From a virus, in IMG/VR virus record IMGVR_UViG_3300010430_000496, positions 1 through 22,271 of that record: a DNA stretch of 22,271 bases. One strand, given 5' to 3'. Under the pieces are notes generated by a model, which ran no database searches, had not been told where the DNA came from, and saw only the letters and a list, made by a program, of their open reading frames with translations. Every line of letters starts with the position of its first letter. The stretch's first letter is position 1. Positions 4,433-15,229 of this stretch are shown in pieces. Made by a program: the position numbers and the translations under genes.

Positions 4433-7400
4433 TTACAAATTGTAATCCATTATGACATTTCCTGCTAAGTTGCCGTATTCCATTTCGTTAGGGTCAAGGT
4501 TGTAAAAGATCGGTCGTCCCAAGATATTAGAGTCTCCTGCAATTTGCATGGTGGTTAACTCTAAGTCAATGAACCAAGACATTTTCACATTCGTTGACCC
4601 AACACAACTCACTCCAAACGAGGTGTCACCGCCCACTCTTACTTGAGTTGAAGTGATGCTTATGGCTGCGTTCGTTGAGGCATCTTTGTTTTCAGCGAGT
4701 ACCGTTGTTGTTCCTACATTTCGAGCTGTTACTTGCGCTGAAGATGAGGTGCGAGTGTTTGCTATAGACGCTTGAGTTTGCTGTGAAACTGAGTTTCCAA
4801 TCGTCCCTGCTGTGCCTCCTGTTTCAACTGCAACTGCCTGAACCCTAACGAGCATAACGGAGTCTAGCGGAACTGTCCATGCAGACACCCCTAAATCCGT
4901 TTGAGCCGCTACGGGAGTTGTGCCATCGGTCGTCGCATAGATTCTTGCGCTAATGTTTGCACCTACTACCCCGTCTTGCTGAAACGTGGTGACCTTAGAG
5001 GTTGCAAAATCCGTGTATGAATTGGGCGTATTTATGACAGAGCCTGTTGGAGTATCGGGATTTCCAACTCCTCCCCCTCCGTTTCCTCCACCTCCATGAC
5101 CGCCACTACCTCCTCCTGCATTACGAGAGAAGCATACGTTGTTTGCATTATCCCAAACAAATCCATTGAGTACACAGCAAGTTTCAGTCGGGCTTACCGG
5201 GTCACCGGTGGAGTCGCTTACAAAACTAACTGTCCCGTCTGTATTGAATCCTGATGGATGACTCCCACATTGAGGTGAGATTCTGCCGTTCGGTTTATTT
5301 ATGACTTTAACAAGTTTGGCGTTGGCTAATCCATTGCCTCCAATTTGATAATTGGTAATGCTTAACACTTTCCAAAATGCACCGTCTAAATAAAGGTTGT
5401 CATTGAACTTGAGATTGTACACCTCAGCATAAGTCAGATTGACTTTACAAGTCATGACTCTCGAATCAGGAGAGTACACTTCATTAAATAGCCGCGACCA
5501 GTATGTATGAAAAGCATAGTTCAGAGTCGTGCCTCCTGTAATGCCTCCGCTTATAAAAGGGGAGTTGAAATTGTCAGGCCAATCATAACCCCAATTCAGA
5601 CACTTCGTGGTAAGGCTTACGCCTACTTCATTGTACTCAGAAAAGTAGGGATACGTTGAATATGGCGTTCCCCCAAAATTAAATTGACCTCCGTTTCCAA
5701 TGTCTTGCAAACCGTTATAGTAAGCGAGAACGGGCTTGTTTTCGACCCATTGTTTCTGCGCCCAGTCTTCATCAGAACCTGTTGCCCAATCCCAAAAAGT
5801 AGGGACTAAAACATTTGGAATGACGCTCGATTGTTGACCTGCCGCATCGGGGAAAATCTTGCGATTTCGGTAAGGCTGAAAGACTTGCGAAGTTGTGGCT
5901 TTCTCAGTTACAAGATCGGAATCATTCAGGTAGGTGTACTTTCCTTTAATCCAATCGTATTGGTTTTGCCACCATAGATTCAAAAAGTTCTTGCCCTCTG
6001 CATCTGTAAATTCGTATACCTTCTTTTGAAACTCTAAGGTTGACGAAATATTGATAGAGTCTTGGTCTACAATTTCTGTCCAATCTTTATTGGTCGTCCC
6101 TTCTGCCCAATAGTCTGACCACGGCTCAATCTTCATCACGCCTGGATTCTCATTGTCGCTAATGATAACTAGGTTGAACCTTTCAACTATAGCCCTCAGC
6201 CATTTACCAACTTCAATATCAGGGAAGTTTTGAGAGACATCGACAAAAGTGTCTGCATCTGTAATGAAATAAGTCAGTTGGAAGTACGTCATTGACAAGG
6301 GCGAAACCCCTGGCATTGTCTGTAGAATCGTAACCGGGTCGAGAGAGTTAGTTATAGCCGCGTAAACCACGCAACTCTGTCCTTGATAAACATATATTGA
6401 CCAAACATTATTTACAATCGTCGCTACGTTCCCCGTTACCGTGGTTTGTTGAGATGGTATAAGTATTGAGTTGTCAATGCTAATTTGGACGCTTACACTA
6501 TATGGTGAAATCGTTGAGCTTTCTACACAAATATTTGTCTCAAATGAATAAATCCCATCAAAGGGAGCGACAAAAGCATTGCCTGTTATTAGTCCGTCGG
6601 GGTCATAGAAGGTGTCGCCTGATTCCACATTGAACTGAATCGGTGTCCAAAGACTTGCCTCCCCTGCGTTTATTAAGATGTCCTCGCTTATACCGACCTT
6701 GAATCCGTATGTCGCCCTTCCAATAGTTCCTGGAGTATGAAGCGCAAGAAACATATAGACCTTCTGAAAGTCTGCTGAGTTTAAAAAGTTGCTGTCTACG
6801 GCATACCCAAAGCGATTGAAAATGTACTCAACGAGATAAGCAATCCGAATGGCCGGCTTAAATATTCTAAGTGGCAACTGCGATTCGTCCATGCCAAACG
6901 GATACACAAAACCAAGCCCTGTTCCTGTTCCTTCCTCTGTCGAAATAGTGTTCTGACCTCCATCTTGTAAAGGGTAAACAATTGTCCCATCACCCACTAA
7001 TCCCGTAGTGATGTCATTTGTAGTTACCCAAGAATCTTTGACGTTATCCCATGTTAAGGCGTGGTCTAAGTCCGTATCAATTGCTCCTGCGTCATTAGTA
7101 AAGAGTTGAGGAAAAGTCAGGTTTTGAATTTGTTCAAAGACATCTGCGATCTGCTCTAAGATGTTTACCTCATACCCCCTATCTGTGACCGAAAACATCT
7201 GAAGACTTCCTTGCATAAGCAGAATGCCATCAACATAAATAACGCATTCGGTGCTTTTTGTAGCGTTAAATGTTCCGTCAGCAATGTTTGCGTCAAAGTA
7301 GAAAGAGAAGAATTGGTCGTTCTCCTTAGTGCTTGGCAAAGTGAATCGAAACGAATAGGGGCTTGCCCTTCGCATCGGGTTGTCGATGTCCATGAACTGA

Positions 7401-7483
7401 TAGTTCAGCTCAATTGCTTTTTCAGGAACATCGAGTTCTACCTGCGTAGAATTCTCTTGAGTGAATGCTAGTACCTGTACCAT
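4433..7483 (-). CDS. Large tail hub/baseplate-like structural protein
   Basis: This 1016-residue protein has the N-terminal pattern of a large Bacteroidota phage tail protein: IELNYQFMDIDNPMRRASPYSFRFTLPSTKENDQFF, then a domain with AT..CVIYVDGILLMQGSLQ (about residues 1-130). The middle (about 130-760) is rich in Trp, Tyr and Asn and looks beta-stranded. A Cys motif (ETCCVLNGFVWD, then NNVCF, about 760-785) leads into a glycine-rich hinge of about 20 residues at 787-808. The last part contains an Ig/CHB_HEX-like repeat (ARIYATTDGTTPV, about 860-880) often found in carbohydrate-contacting proteins. It starts at a TAATG overlap with the gene before and lies just upstream of the tape measure. 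The likely role is tail-tip structure with host contact at the C-terminus; family placement is from recall. Confidence 0.7.
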   Translation of the reverse strand: MVQVLAFTQENSTQVELDVPEKAIELNYQFMDIDNPMRRASPYSFRFTLPSTKENDQFFSFYFDANIADGTFNATKSTECVIYVDGILLMQGSLQMFSVTDRGYEVNILEQIADVFEQIQNLTFPQLFTNDAGAIDTDLDHALTWDNVKDSWVTTNDITTGLVGDGTIVYPLQDGGQNTISTEEGTGTGLGFVYPFGMDESQLPLRIFKPAIRIAYLVEYIFNRFGYAVDSNFLNSADFQKVYMFLALHTPGTIGRATYGFKVGISEDILINAGEASLWTPIQFNVESGDTFYDPDGLITGNAFVAPFDGIYSFETNICVESSTISPYSVSVQISIDNSILIPSQQTTVTGNVATIVNNVWSIYVYQGQSCVVYAAITNSLDPVTILQTMPGVSPLSMTYFQLTYFITDADTFVDVSQNFPDIEVGKWLRAIVERFNLVIISDNENPGVMKIEPWSDYWAEGTTNKDWTEIVDQDSINISSTLEFQKKVYEFTDAEGKNFLNLWWQNQYDWIKGKYTYLNDSDLVTEKATTSQVFQPYRNRKIFPDAAGQQSSVIPNVLVPTFWDWATGSDEDWAQKQWVENKPVLAYYNGLQDIGNGGQFNFGGTPYSTYPYFSEYNEVGVSLTTKCLNWGYDWPDNFNSPFISGGITGGTTLNYAFHTYWSRLFNEVYSPDSRVMTCKVNLTYAEVYNLKFNDNLYLDGAFWKVLSITNYQIGGNGLANAKLVKVINKPNGRISPQCGSHPSGFNTDGTVSFVSDSTGDPVSPTETCCVLNGFVWDNANNVCFSRNAGGGSGGHGGGGNGGGGVGNPDTPTGSVINTPNSYTDFATSKVTTFQQDGVVGANISARIYATTDGTTPVAAQTDLGVSAWTVPLDSVMLVRVQAVAVETGGTAGTIGNSVSQQTQASIANTRTSSSAQVTARNVGTTTVLAENKDASTNAAISITSTQVRVGGDTSFGVSCVGSTNVKMSWFIDLELTTMQIAGDSNILGRPIFYNLDPNEMEYGNLAGNVIMDYNL

Positions 7484-8874
7484 TAACCGTTGACTCTACG
7501 TCTGCTGATTTCAACTACCACTTTATAACTCGATGCTTGGTCATTAACTCCTGACTTCATCACAAGTCTCGTGTCAGTTACACACGCTTGAACAAGACCT
7601 GTACTTGCTTCACCTTGATTTAAACCAAACAAACTATTTCCCCAAAGGAATACACGAGGGCTGTTTAATAGTGATTTAATCAAGGGAGTTAAGTTTTCGG
7701 GGTCGCCTCCAATCGTACTTAACTCATAGGTCGTAGTCGTGTGGACATCCGTACTTCTTTTGCCTCCTGAATAAGAATTCCGCTTGTATGCTGTATTGCC
7801 TGTCCCGGTAGCATCAAAACTGTTTCCCCCTGATGTTCTATAGGTCTTCTTGTCCATAGCTTGAGACTCCATGACTTTGCCTAGCATGGGTAAGTTGTCA
7901 ACCCCTCCTTTGCTATTCCACCAATGAAGCGAAAAAACCTGGTCATCTGTGACATATCTACCACATGAAACCCTCTCGAATCTATAAACAGAAGACACTT
8001 CGTTACCTGATAGGGTTGTGCTGCTTGCCATTTGAACATCATAGTGCGTCCAACCTGAGTTGCCTGCATCACTTGGTCTAAGGCTCGTGTCTATAGATTG
8101 GCTCTTTAAATTGTAAGTCCCCACACCTGCGTAAATGAGAGACTGAGCATCGGTTAATCCGACTGTAGGAAACGCCCCTCCTTGGAGCGCATCATTATCA
8201 AAGTACCCCGTGTTCAAAGCAATCGCTCCTTCAAAATAGCTTACGTGCATATAAGCTCCATTTGAATTCAAGTCTGTTCCATTTATAAAAGCTAAGGCAC
8301 TTGGCATTGACACGCTTGCGCTCGTATATAGAATGCTTGTTTTATATAATTCTGATGACAATTCTTTAATGTCACTCAGGAAGCGATCGCGCGAGTCAAC
8401 GAATTTATAGCGCGTAGAATTCGTATTTGGTGAAGATTGAGTTGCGCTAACAAACTGACCATTGACAACAACAACGTCTGTATCGAAAGCATCTGTCAAC
8501 ACTACCGTTGGAGCAGTCCCAGGAGAGGTGGTAAACTCATAACCAAAACGCATGGTAAAAGTCTTGAGTGCAGAAGTGTTGATTGAGAAAATCTCCGTTG
8601 TATCAACTGAACCATTTATATCGATTGCTCCTAATTGGTACGGGTTGTCATCTTGGTAGACATACCCCTCACACACTCTTTGCGTATTGAAGACTGCCGC
8701 GTTTGCGTTGTTAGGCAATTGCTTTAGCTTCATCAACTCAGCACCCCCTACCCTGATTGAGCATATATATCTATAGTCAGGTTCAGCCGTGTTCGTCGTG
8801 TCATTGACAACGTAGATAAGGTCATCCCATGCGCCTTGCAGACCTGTGGTGGATTGATTTACTGTATACGCCAT
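7483..8874 (-). CDS. Phage structural protein, tail-associated (463 aa)
   Basis: The N-terminus (GLQGAWDDLIYVVNDT..., PDYRYICSIRVGGAELMKLKQLPNNANAAVFNTQRV) matches a pattern I associate with tail-associated structural proteins of marine and gut Bacteroidota phages: a Trp-containing strand, an R-Y-x-x-x-V/I strand, a P-N-x-x-x-x-x-F/V-[ND] turn, then a Y-V strand. The rest is Ser/Thr/Asn-rich and beta-like, with no membrane segment or enzyme motif. Its start shares the TAATG overlap with the connector gene upstream, and its stop overlaps the start of the 1016-residue protein in the same way, so the three are probably co-translated. It could be a major tail or tail-tip protein; no closer call is possible by eye. 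Confidence 0.6.
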   Translation of the reverse strand: MAYTVNQSTTGLQGAWDDLIYVVNDTTNTAEPDYRYICSIRVGGAELMKLKQLPNNANAAVFNTQRVCEGYVYQDDNPYQLGAIDINGSVDTTEIFSINTSALKTFTMRFGYEFTTSPGTAPTVVLTDAFDTDVVVVNGQFVSATQSSPNTNSTRYKFVDSRDRFLSDIKELSSELYKTSILYTSASVSMPSALAFINGTDLNSNGAYMHVSYFEGAIALNTGYFDNDALQGGAFPTVGLTDAQSLIYAGVGTYNLKSQSIDTSLRPSDAGNSGWTHYDVQMASSTTLSGNEVSSVYRFERVSCGRYVTDDQVFSLHWWNSKGGVDNLPMLGKVMESQAMDKKTYRTSGGNSFDATGTGNTAYKRNSYSGGKRSTDVHTTTTYELSTIGGDPENLTPLIKSLLNSPRVFLWGNSLFGLNQGEASTGLVQACVTDTRLVMKSGVNDQASSYKVVVEISRRRVNG

Positions 8875-14365: not shown

Positions 14366-15229
14366 CTAATTTACGTCTAAAGCATTAAATTCCCTATCCA
14401 TTATGTCAATTGCTTCAAAAATACTGTGTGCAATCTGTGGCACTATTGCGTTCCCGTAAGCCGCTACACTTTGTCTTCTCCATTTTGGAAAGGTAATGCC
14501 GTCCAGTTCTTGGGGAAGCCCATCATCTCCTCCACAAACAGGGGGGACAGTTGGGAAGTCTTCCCACCTATTTCGTATCGTTTGGCTATCTCGTCCGATA
14601 GATTCCCCTTGCCCCTGTCTACTGATGGGTTCGATCTTTCCTGTTGAGCTATCGGTGTCGGGAGCATTCCCGATTCGATCAAGGCTGTAAACATCGACTT
14701 TCCTCCCTGCTTGAAGTCGCTCTTTCTGCCCGTCTCCGTCGTGATTGTGGGCAACAAACCAAACTCGCATCCGTCGGTGGGGAGCGTTCTTGGCACAAGC
14801 TGGTATAAGATACGGTTGTACGGAGTACCCAAGATTTTCCAAGTCAACGCACACCTCTTCGAAAACCATTCCGTCTGACCACCCAACAAGACCTTTGACA
14901 TTTTCGCCAACCACGTATCGTGGACGACACTCTCTGATAACTCTAAGCATCGACGGCCACAAGTGGCGGTCGTCTTCTGTTCCCTTGCGTTTTCCTGCGA
15001 CGCTAAACGGTTGACAGGGGAATCCTCCGCTGAGGACATCAATTCGTCCTCGATACTTATTTGCGTCCATCGTTCTGACATCATCATATAGTTTAGAATT
15101 TGGGAAATGGTGGGCTAGAACTTTCTGACCAAACTCATCGCGCTCACAATGGAAGATGTTTTCCCATCCCATCCATGAGGCTGCAAGATCGAATCCTCCT
15201 ATGCCCGAAAATAGAGAACCATGTGTCAT
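14366..15229 (-). CDS. DNA C5-cytosine methyltransferase, orphan
   Basis: It transfers a methyl group from S-adenosylmethionine to C5 of cytosine. All key motifs are present: motif I FSGIGGFD (residues 7-14), motif IV GGFPCQPFS with catalytic Cys72, motif VI GENV (Glu109), motif VIII NAPHRRMRVWFVA (148-160), and a C-terminal motif IX/X RRQSVAAYGNAIVPQIA (about 251-267). The target-recognition part between VIII and IX is short (about 90 residues) and polar. At 287 residues it is compact, as in phage enzymes. No endonuclease gene lies beside it, so it probably protects phage DNA from host restriction. A second long frame lies inside the gene (see the separate entry). The stop is four bases before ninG. 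Confidence 0.93.
   Translation of the reverse strand: MTHGSLFSGIGGFDLAASWMGWENIFHCERDEFGQKVLAHHFPNSKLYDDVRTMDANKYRGRIDVLSGGFPCQPFSVAGKRKGTEDDRHLWPSMLRVIRECRPRYVVGENVKGLVGWSDGMVFEEVCVDLENLGYSVQPYLIPACAKNAPHRRMRVWFVAHNHDGDGQKERLQAGRKVDVYSLDRIGNAPDTDSSTGKIEPISRQGQGESIGRDSQTIRNRWEDFPTVPPVCGGDDGLPQELDGITFPKWRRQSVAAYGNAIVPQIAHSIFEAIDIMDREFNALDVN
14464..15087 (-). CDS. Overprinted second-frame protein inside the methyltransferase gene (207 aa)
   Basis: A +1 frame within the methyltransferase gene is open for 207 codons, starting at three successive ATGs (MMMSERWTQ) and ending at a TAG inside methyltransferase motif IX/X. The translation looks like a real phage protein: VNRLASQENAREQKTT, WLAKMSKVLL, CALTWKILGTPYNRILYQLVP, CEFGLLPT, then LSPLFVEEMMGFPKNWTALPF. 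I recall stand-alone phage proteins with the same order (LASQEN, TWK, LYFQLV, GLLPTP, FVEEMMGFP-x-x-W), usually unannotated and often next to methyltransferases. So the frame is likely translated, or is a record of how that family arose. Function is unknown. It is the only long alternative frame I believe. Confidence 0.45.
   Translation of the reverse strand: MMMSERWTQISIEDELMSSAEDSPVNRLASQENAREQKTTATCGRRCLELSESVVHDTWLAKMSKVLLGGQTEWFSKRCALTWKILGTPYNRILYQLVPRTLPTDGCEFGLLPTITTETGRKSDFKQGGKSMFTALIESGMLPTPIAQQERSNPSVDRGKGNLSDEIAKRYEIGGKTSQLSPLFVEEMMGFPKNWTALPFQNGEDKV

Follow-up and report, generated by a model that had tools for sequence, protein, structure and literature searches.

The stretch of DNA that is analysed here, which we refer to as "the window", is the whole of an IMG/VR virus record (22,271 bases) and corresponds to a tailed-phage genome or part of one: its genes, mostly located on the minus strand, include those of a large terminase, a head protease, a NinG-like nuclease, a replication initiator and an amidase. 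Two further ORFs of the minus strand, at positions 4433-7483 (1016 aa) and 7483-8874 (463 aa), are without any PHROG match. Our analysis is concerned with a gene for a C5-cytosine DNA methyltransferase, the product of which we call "alpha", and with a second ORF that is located wholly within it, the product of which we call "beta"; the features of both are listed in Table 1.

Table 1. Coordinates of the methyltransferase gene, the nested ORF and their sequence features in the window.
Feature	Position	Strand	Basis
Alpha (large chain), C5-cytosine DNA methyltransferase, 287 aa	14366..15229	-	PF00145 E=5.2e-44; phrog_363 3.5e-71
Beta (nested ORF, putative small chain), 207 aa, ATG start, +1 frame of alpha	14464..15087	-	phrog_1008 5.7e-21
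Proposed beta start ATG; window sequence ATGATGATG	15085..15087	-	ATG column conserved in relatives
Alpha motif I, SLFSGIGGFDLA	15182..15217	-	Sequence
Alpha motif IV, catalytic Cys72, GGFPCQPFS	15002..15028	-	Aligned to M.HhaI
Alpha motif VIII region, APHRRMRVWFVA	14750..14785	-	Sequence
Alpha motif X, GNAIVPQIAHSI, just downstream of the beta stop	14420..14455	-	Sequence and profile alignment
Conserved N-terminal block of beta, residues 68-100, W..S..C.LTWK...NR.LYQL	14788..14886	-	Overlaps alpha motifs VI-VIII
Variable LLPT...MLPTP region of beta, residues 110-176, proposed target-recognition region	14560..14760	-	Variability, selection, Silvy-type comparison
Motif IX-like segment of beta, residues 178-200, SQLSPLFVEEMMGFPKNWTALPF	14488..14556	-	Profile match to canonical motif IX

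Alpha contains motifs I, IV (PCQ), VI (ENV) and VIII, and aligns with M.HhaI (E=3e-22). The beta ORF starts upstream of alpha motif IV and stops just before motif X, i.e. its end does not overlap motif X, in contrast to what had been stated in a preliminary description of the window that was made from the sequence alone. The existence of a 207-codon +1 ORF within the methyltransferase gene had been recognised in the same description, although the minus strand was left unstated, and the phrases that were quoted from its translation, i.e. LASQEN, TWK...LYQLVP, GLLPT and FVEEMMGFPKNW, are all found in beta. The plus strand is full of stops over the positions of the beta ORF.

A search of IMG/VR with the nested protein has returned 80 loci, and in all 80 the nested frame is open and always at +1. 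As this set is biased by construction, the search was repeated with the main frame only: all of the 80 nearest viral methyltransferases found in this way have a homologue of the nested protein in the +1 frame, with 174-317 open +1 codons, except for one locus (L122), where an interrupted main frame cut the scan short, while their +2 frame contains 11-38 stops. Ascertainment bias is countered by the main-frame search together with the use of a fixed region, from motif IV to just before motif X: over this region, the +1 frame of 127 non-identical loci has no stop in 24,833 codons, compared with 366 stops that are expected from within-gene synonymous shuffles, and the +2 frame has 1,740. For the window alone, the preliminary description had put the probability of such an open frame at about 1 in 40,000, a figure that equals 0.95^207; synonymous shuffling of the gene's own codons instead keeps the 217-codon stretch open in 13 of 5000 shuffles (4.0 stops expected, none seen), and this test errs on the cautious side, since selection has already shaped the set of codons that is shuffled.

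The selection on the two frames has been measured by classing substitutions according to their effect in both, using 53 disjoint pairs with bootstrap in place of non-independent pairs. The dN/dS of the nested frame is 0.172 (0.134-0.212) for changes that are nonsynonymous in the main frame and 0.317 (0.247-0.417) for changes that are synonymous in it, and that of the main frame is 0.104 (0.084-0.125); the +2 control gives 5.4 and 0.96 for the same two classes of changes, and a value of 0.79 (0.48-1.57) is obtained for +1 outside the overlap. Each third codon position in the main frame coincides with a second position in the nested frame, and its usual freedom is lost inside the overlap: in close pairs, the differences per main-frame codon position are 0.156/0.088/0.336 outside the overlap and 0.240/0.147/0.253 inside it. 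From motif IV to the end of motif VIII, the main frame dominates (dN/dS 0.07, against 0.25 (0.17-0.34) for the nested frame), whereas past motif VIII the constraint is stronger on the nested frame (0.11, against 0.29 for the main frame), which indicates that the region of the would-be recognition domain is selected mainly for its nested reading. Purifying selection acts on both frames, the main frame dominating in one half and the nested frame in the other, so that the extra synonymous constraint across relatives, the lack of which was named in the preliminary description as evidence against a second gene, is present.

The 13 open shuffles of the window are the one result that accords with an untranslated open frame, produced by accident of composition or by the constraint on the methyltransferase. 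We assign a negligible probability to this explanation, given the 0 stops where 366 are expected, the nested dN/dS far below 1 next to a +2 control that is neutral or above, and the separate beta gene of Porphyromonas somerae that is described below; chance or composition as the origin of the open frame is rejected on the stop counts, the dN/dS values and the shuffles. The beta ORF is a conserved protein-coding gene, and the suggestion of a still-translated, dual-coding gene has been borne out by the conservation of the open frame, the two-frame dN/dS, the conserved ATG and the natural separation of the two genes.

The start of the nested gene is also conserved: in almost every one of the 134 loci, an ATG is located close to one and the same alignment column, mostly within 4 columns and almost always within 0-12. 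At the start site of the window, the main frame has a tyrosine, the TAT codon of which is required for the nested ATG; TAT is found there at a ratio of 66:23, compared with 364:546 at the other tyrosine codons of the same genes (P=8.6e-10). The leader of the beta ATG is usually AT-rich and without a Shine-Dalgarno sequence, as it is in the window, and in Paenibacillus phages GGGAGGTG is located upstream of the ATG. These features are consistent with translation being initiated at the conserved internal ATG. The nested frame could alternatively be entered by a programmed ribosomal frameshift, giving one fused chain with motifs I-VIII, the recognition region and motif IX; this was left open for gp6/gp7 of Corndog by the authors who described the Cluster O mycobacteriophages (PMC4351075), and single-chain relatives with everything in one frame do exist. 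We consider the frameshift very unlikely, as the ATG near the 5' end of beta is conserved, selection on the nested frame is already seen in its N-terminal half, which precedes any useful shift point (the value of 0.25 given above), beta of P. somerae is a gene of its own directly after the alpha stop, and the fused product would be without motif X in the nested loci.

Searches of Pfam, NCBIfam and PADLOC with beta have given no match, and neither has a search of the PDB with the profile of the nested family; by profile, beta is assigned to a PHROG family (phrog_1008) that is labelled 'DNA methyltransferase'. The clue to its identity is located at the C-terminus of the nested family, LNPxFVEEMMGFPxNWT, the best profile match of which is motif IX of canonical C5 methyltransferases: the match is short (24 columns), with an E-value of 0.012 for the whole profile and 5e-4 for the C-terminal segment, and its score of 25.4 can be compared with column shuffles (n=60) of mean 11.5, SD 2.2 and maximum 19.7. 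An HMM scan of single nested sequences for motif IX is weak (median -0.6 bits), with the same position found in 100 of 100 members, and the usable evidence for motif IX is the profile-profile comparison rather than the single-sequence scan. AlphaFold2 has modelled beta alone poorly (pLDDT 55.5, pTM 0.24), too poorly for a fold search; in a model of a single-chain relative, the catalytic domain is confident and the recognition region is of low confidence, and the comparison of this model with M.HhaI by Foldseek, in which only about 183 columns are aligned, adds nothing on the small domain.

The counterpart of this match is a gap in alpha. When the alpha profile is aligned globally to the canonical profile, the gap falls at motif IX, and when alpha of the window is aligned with single-chain phage enzymes by MAFFT, it falls opposite MMGWPAGWVT; in contrast to the preliminary description, the main frame does not keep every methyltransferase motif, and alpha lacks the canonical motif IX that C5-cytosine methyltransferases (PF00145) have in the same chain. 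Conversely, 34 canonical single-chain methyltransferases from Bacteroidia have no long +1 ORF (median 56 codons, maximum 104, as in shuffles). The nested ORF and an in-frame motif IX are thus alternatives to each other.

The two genes occur naturally separated in P. somerae (L241), where they are arranged in tandem, with the beta ATG 1 nt after the alpha stop; the +1 frame of this alpha is filled with stops, as are the other frames of this beta, which includes the conserved N-terminal block, and besides alpha, no PF00145 gene has been found in the genome. Among 80 loci found in bacterial genomes with the nested profile (L175-L254), it is the sole one without overlap. That both genes have been kept, adjoining each other, after the overlap was resolved implies that both proteins are wanted. 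The linker between motifs VIII and X of alpha is 62 aa long in P. somerae, compared with a minimum of 63 and a median of 120 in the nested loci, which is suggestive, but only suggestive, of a linker that shrinks when beta is unnested.

A series of further architectures is found in phages. In the single-chain Silvy 53, the LLPTP repeats, AFPEWMMGWPAGW and GNGV are in one frame, and the nested profile matches its in-frame recognition/motif IX part (E=4.4e-7, the best of 200 shuffles being 5.9). The methyltransferase is split into two adjacent genes in TaylorSipht (40/41), into genes with a 23-nt overlap in Happiness (78/77) and into genes with a 209-nt overlap in YungJamal (7/6). In the mycobacteriophage relatives of Silvy 53 (L319-L350), the LPTP repeats form a frame mosaic: within a single gene, some of them are read in +1 and others in frame 0, which suggests that this segment has switched frames during evolution. 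The main frame of gene 38 in Streptomyces phage Darolandstone (L318) includes motifs IX and X, while a series of LLPTP repeats is located in +1. Distant +1 forms nested inside annotated methyltransferases are found in Synechococcus, Vibrio, Salmonella, Acinetobacter, Sulfitobacter, Mycobacterium and Porphyromonas phages. The preliminary description had mentioned stand-alone phage proteins that contain the phrases quoted above, which is partly right: several annotated entries, among them DBA55433.1 of Porphyromonas phage018a and TADHANA_55 of a Paenibacillus phage, have turned out to be nested ORFs themselves, but beta homologues outside the methyltransferase gene do exist, as separate genes in P. 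somerae and in TaylorSipht (41) and Happiness (77). A restriction of homologues to the methyltransferase locus, which the preliminary description had also named as evidence against a second gene, is thus not observed.

A few loci depart from two intact frames. In Bacteroides finegoldii plasmid 36 (L171) and the fecal phage MT835926 (L086), the main frame has a TGA at the conserved tryptophan just before motif X, and L171 has another after motif VIII (positions 1986-1988 and 2484-2486 in L171, 2960-2962 in L086), while the nested frame is open for about 350 codons despite the interruption; this main frame may represent a pseudogene, a truncated alpha or recoding. In a Bacteroidia genome (G043, locus L305), a frameshift divides the main frame into two ORFs and three stops interrupt the nested frame, giving the impression that the two frames are decaying together. 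In Mycobacterium phage Llama (genes 74/75, L255), a frameshift splits the main frame into two genes that are both annotated as 'DNA methylase'.

Beta could also be a real gene with an unrelated role, e.g. in anti-restriction, regulation or takeover, that merely happens to be located in a methyltransferase gene: overprinted genes are often accessory, and the lack of a known domain in beta (Pfam, NCBIfam, PADLOC) fits this explanation as well. We find it unlikely nonetheless, since beta accompanies methyltransferases that are without motif IX and is absent from the 34 that have it, shares homology with the second genes of split enzymes as well as with the recognition/motif IX part that single-chain enzymes have in frame, and still adjoins the methyltransferase where it is unnested, in P. 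somerae.

The function of beta, given as unknown in the preliminary description, can be replaced by a specific proposal: with a probability of about 0.85, the DNA encodes a split, two-subunit C5-cytosine methyltransferase of the M.EcoHK31I type, of which beta is the small subunit. According to this proposal, frame 0 would give a large chain with AdoMet binding, the catalytic cysteine and motifs I-VIII and X, while the internal +1 ATG would give a separate small chain with the variable target-recognition region and motif IX, i.e. the counterpart of the small domain of ordinary C5 methyltransferases. The two chains are predicted to associate into a heterodimer that would be the working enzyme, and this enzyme would probably protect the phage DNA from host restriction. 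At positions 433-1146 of the minus strand, the window has a 237-aa ORF, the C-terminus of which matches an anti-restriction protein family (phrog_2059, E=1.2e-7); together with the methyltransferase, it would be the second putative anti-restriction gene of the window.

Most likely, beta carries the DNA-recognition part that alpha lacks, as we infer from the dominance of the nested frame in selection after motif VIII, from the Corndog-type pair, the large chain of which terminates immediately past motif VIII, and from the single-chain enzymes, which have the LLPTP region in frame. On balance, we also favour a broader reading, i.e. that there is a very large class of phage methyltransferases, mostly unannotated, with beta as the subunit that determines DNA specificity, in which the two frames dominate upstream and downstream of motif VIII, respectively, and the lineages switch between nested, overlapping, adjacent and single-chain forms through frame changes in the LPTP-repeat region.

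Outside small viruses, overlaps of at least 200 codons in which selection has been measured on both frames are, to our knowledge, rare. The two-subunit C5 methyltransferase is already known as a kind of enzyme; what appears to be new is the breadth of the nested family, the quantified dual selection, the shift of dominance between the frames and the natural separation. In the open-access literature, we have not found a description of the nested family, its breadth or its dual selection, apart from the remark on Corndog (PMC4351075). The arrangement recurs in phages of Bacteroidota, Bacillota, Actinomycetota, Proteobacteria and Cyanobacteria, as judged by the hosts in phage and prophage records and not by the window. 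Gene callers usually drop one of the two frames, and annotation mostly overlooks the double coding; if the small chain sets the specificity, many phage methyltransferases that are now recorded as single, complete genes would show no activity if they were cloned in their annotated form. The separated pair of P. somerae makes the two-subunit proposal directly testable.

Among the known systems, M.EcoHK31I (specificity YGGCCR), of which M.EaeI is a relative, is the closest to our proposal: its small chain was reportedly shown by Lee, Kam and Shaw in 1995 to be translated from another frame within the large-chain gene, and the nested ORFs of the window and its relatives are arranged in this way. 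Both M.EcoHK31I and M.AquI have been described as naturally split C5 methyltransferases, one chain of M.EcoHK31I containing motifs I-VIII and X and the other just motif IX (PMC3404938); the pair of the window corresponds to this published distribution of motifs. The recognition domain of M.EcoHK31I, however, is predicted to be in its large chain (PMC3404938), whereas in the window the selection after motif VIII favours the nested frame; moreover, M.EcoHK31I is one restriction-modification system, and the kind found in the window is a large phage and prophage family. M.AquI is, like our proposal for the window, a natural two-polypeptide C5 methyltransferase, but its small chain contains both motifs IX and X and half of the variable region (PMC3404938), whereas motif X of the window is in the large chain, which sets the window pair apart from the M.AquI type. 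The genes of gp7 and gp6 in the Cluster O mycobacteriophages Corndog and YungJamal resemble the window in that the methyltransferase extends over two genes overlapping in +1, the second of which belongs to phrog_1008, as does beta, a family whose label is silent on its members being small or nested chains without catalytic motifs; they differ from the window in that the overlap is only 209 nt and motif X is in the second gene, compared with full nesting and a motif X in alpha. The Cluster O authors noted coding potential in the Corndog overlap and left it undecided whether the enzyme is assembled from two products or fused by a frameshift (PMC4351075), a question to which the two-subunit reading of the window offers an answer.
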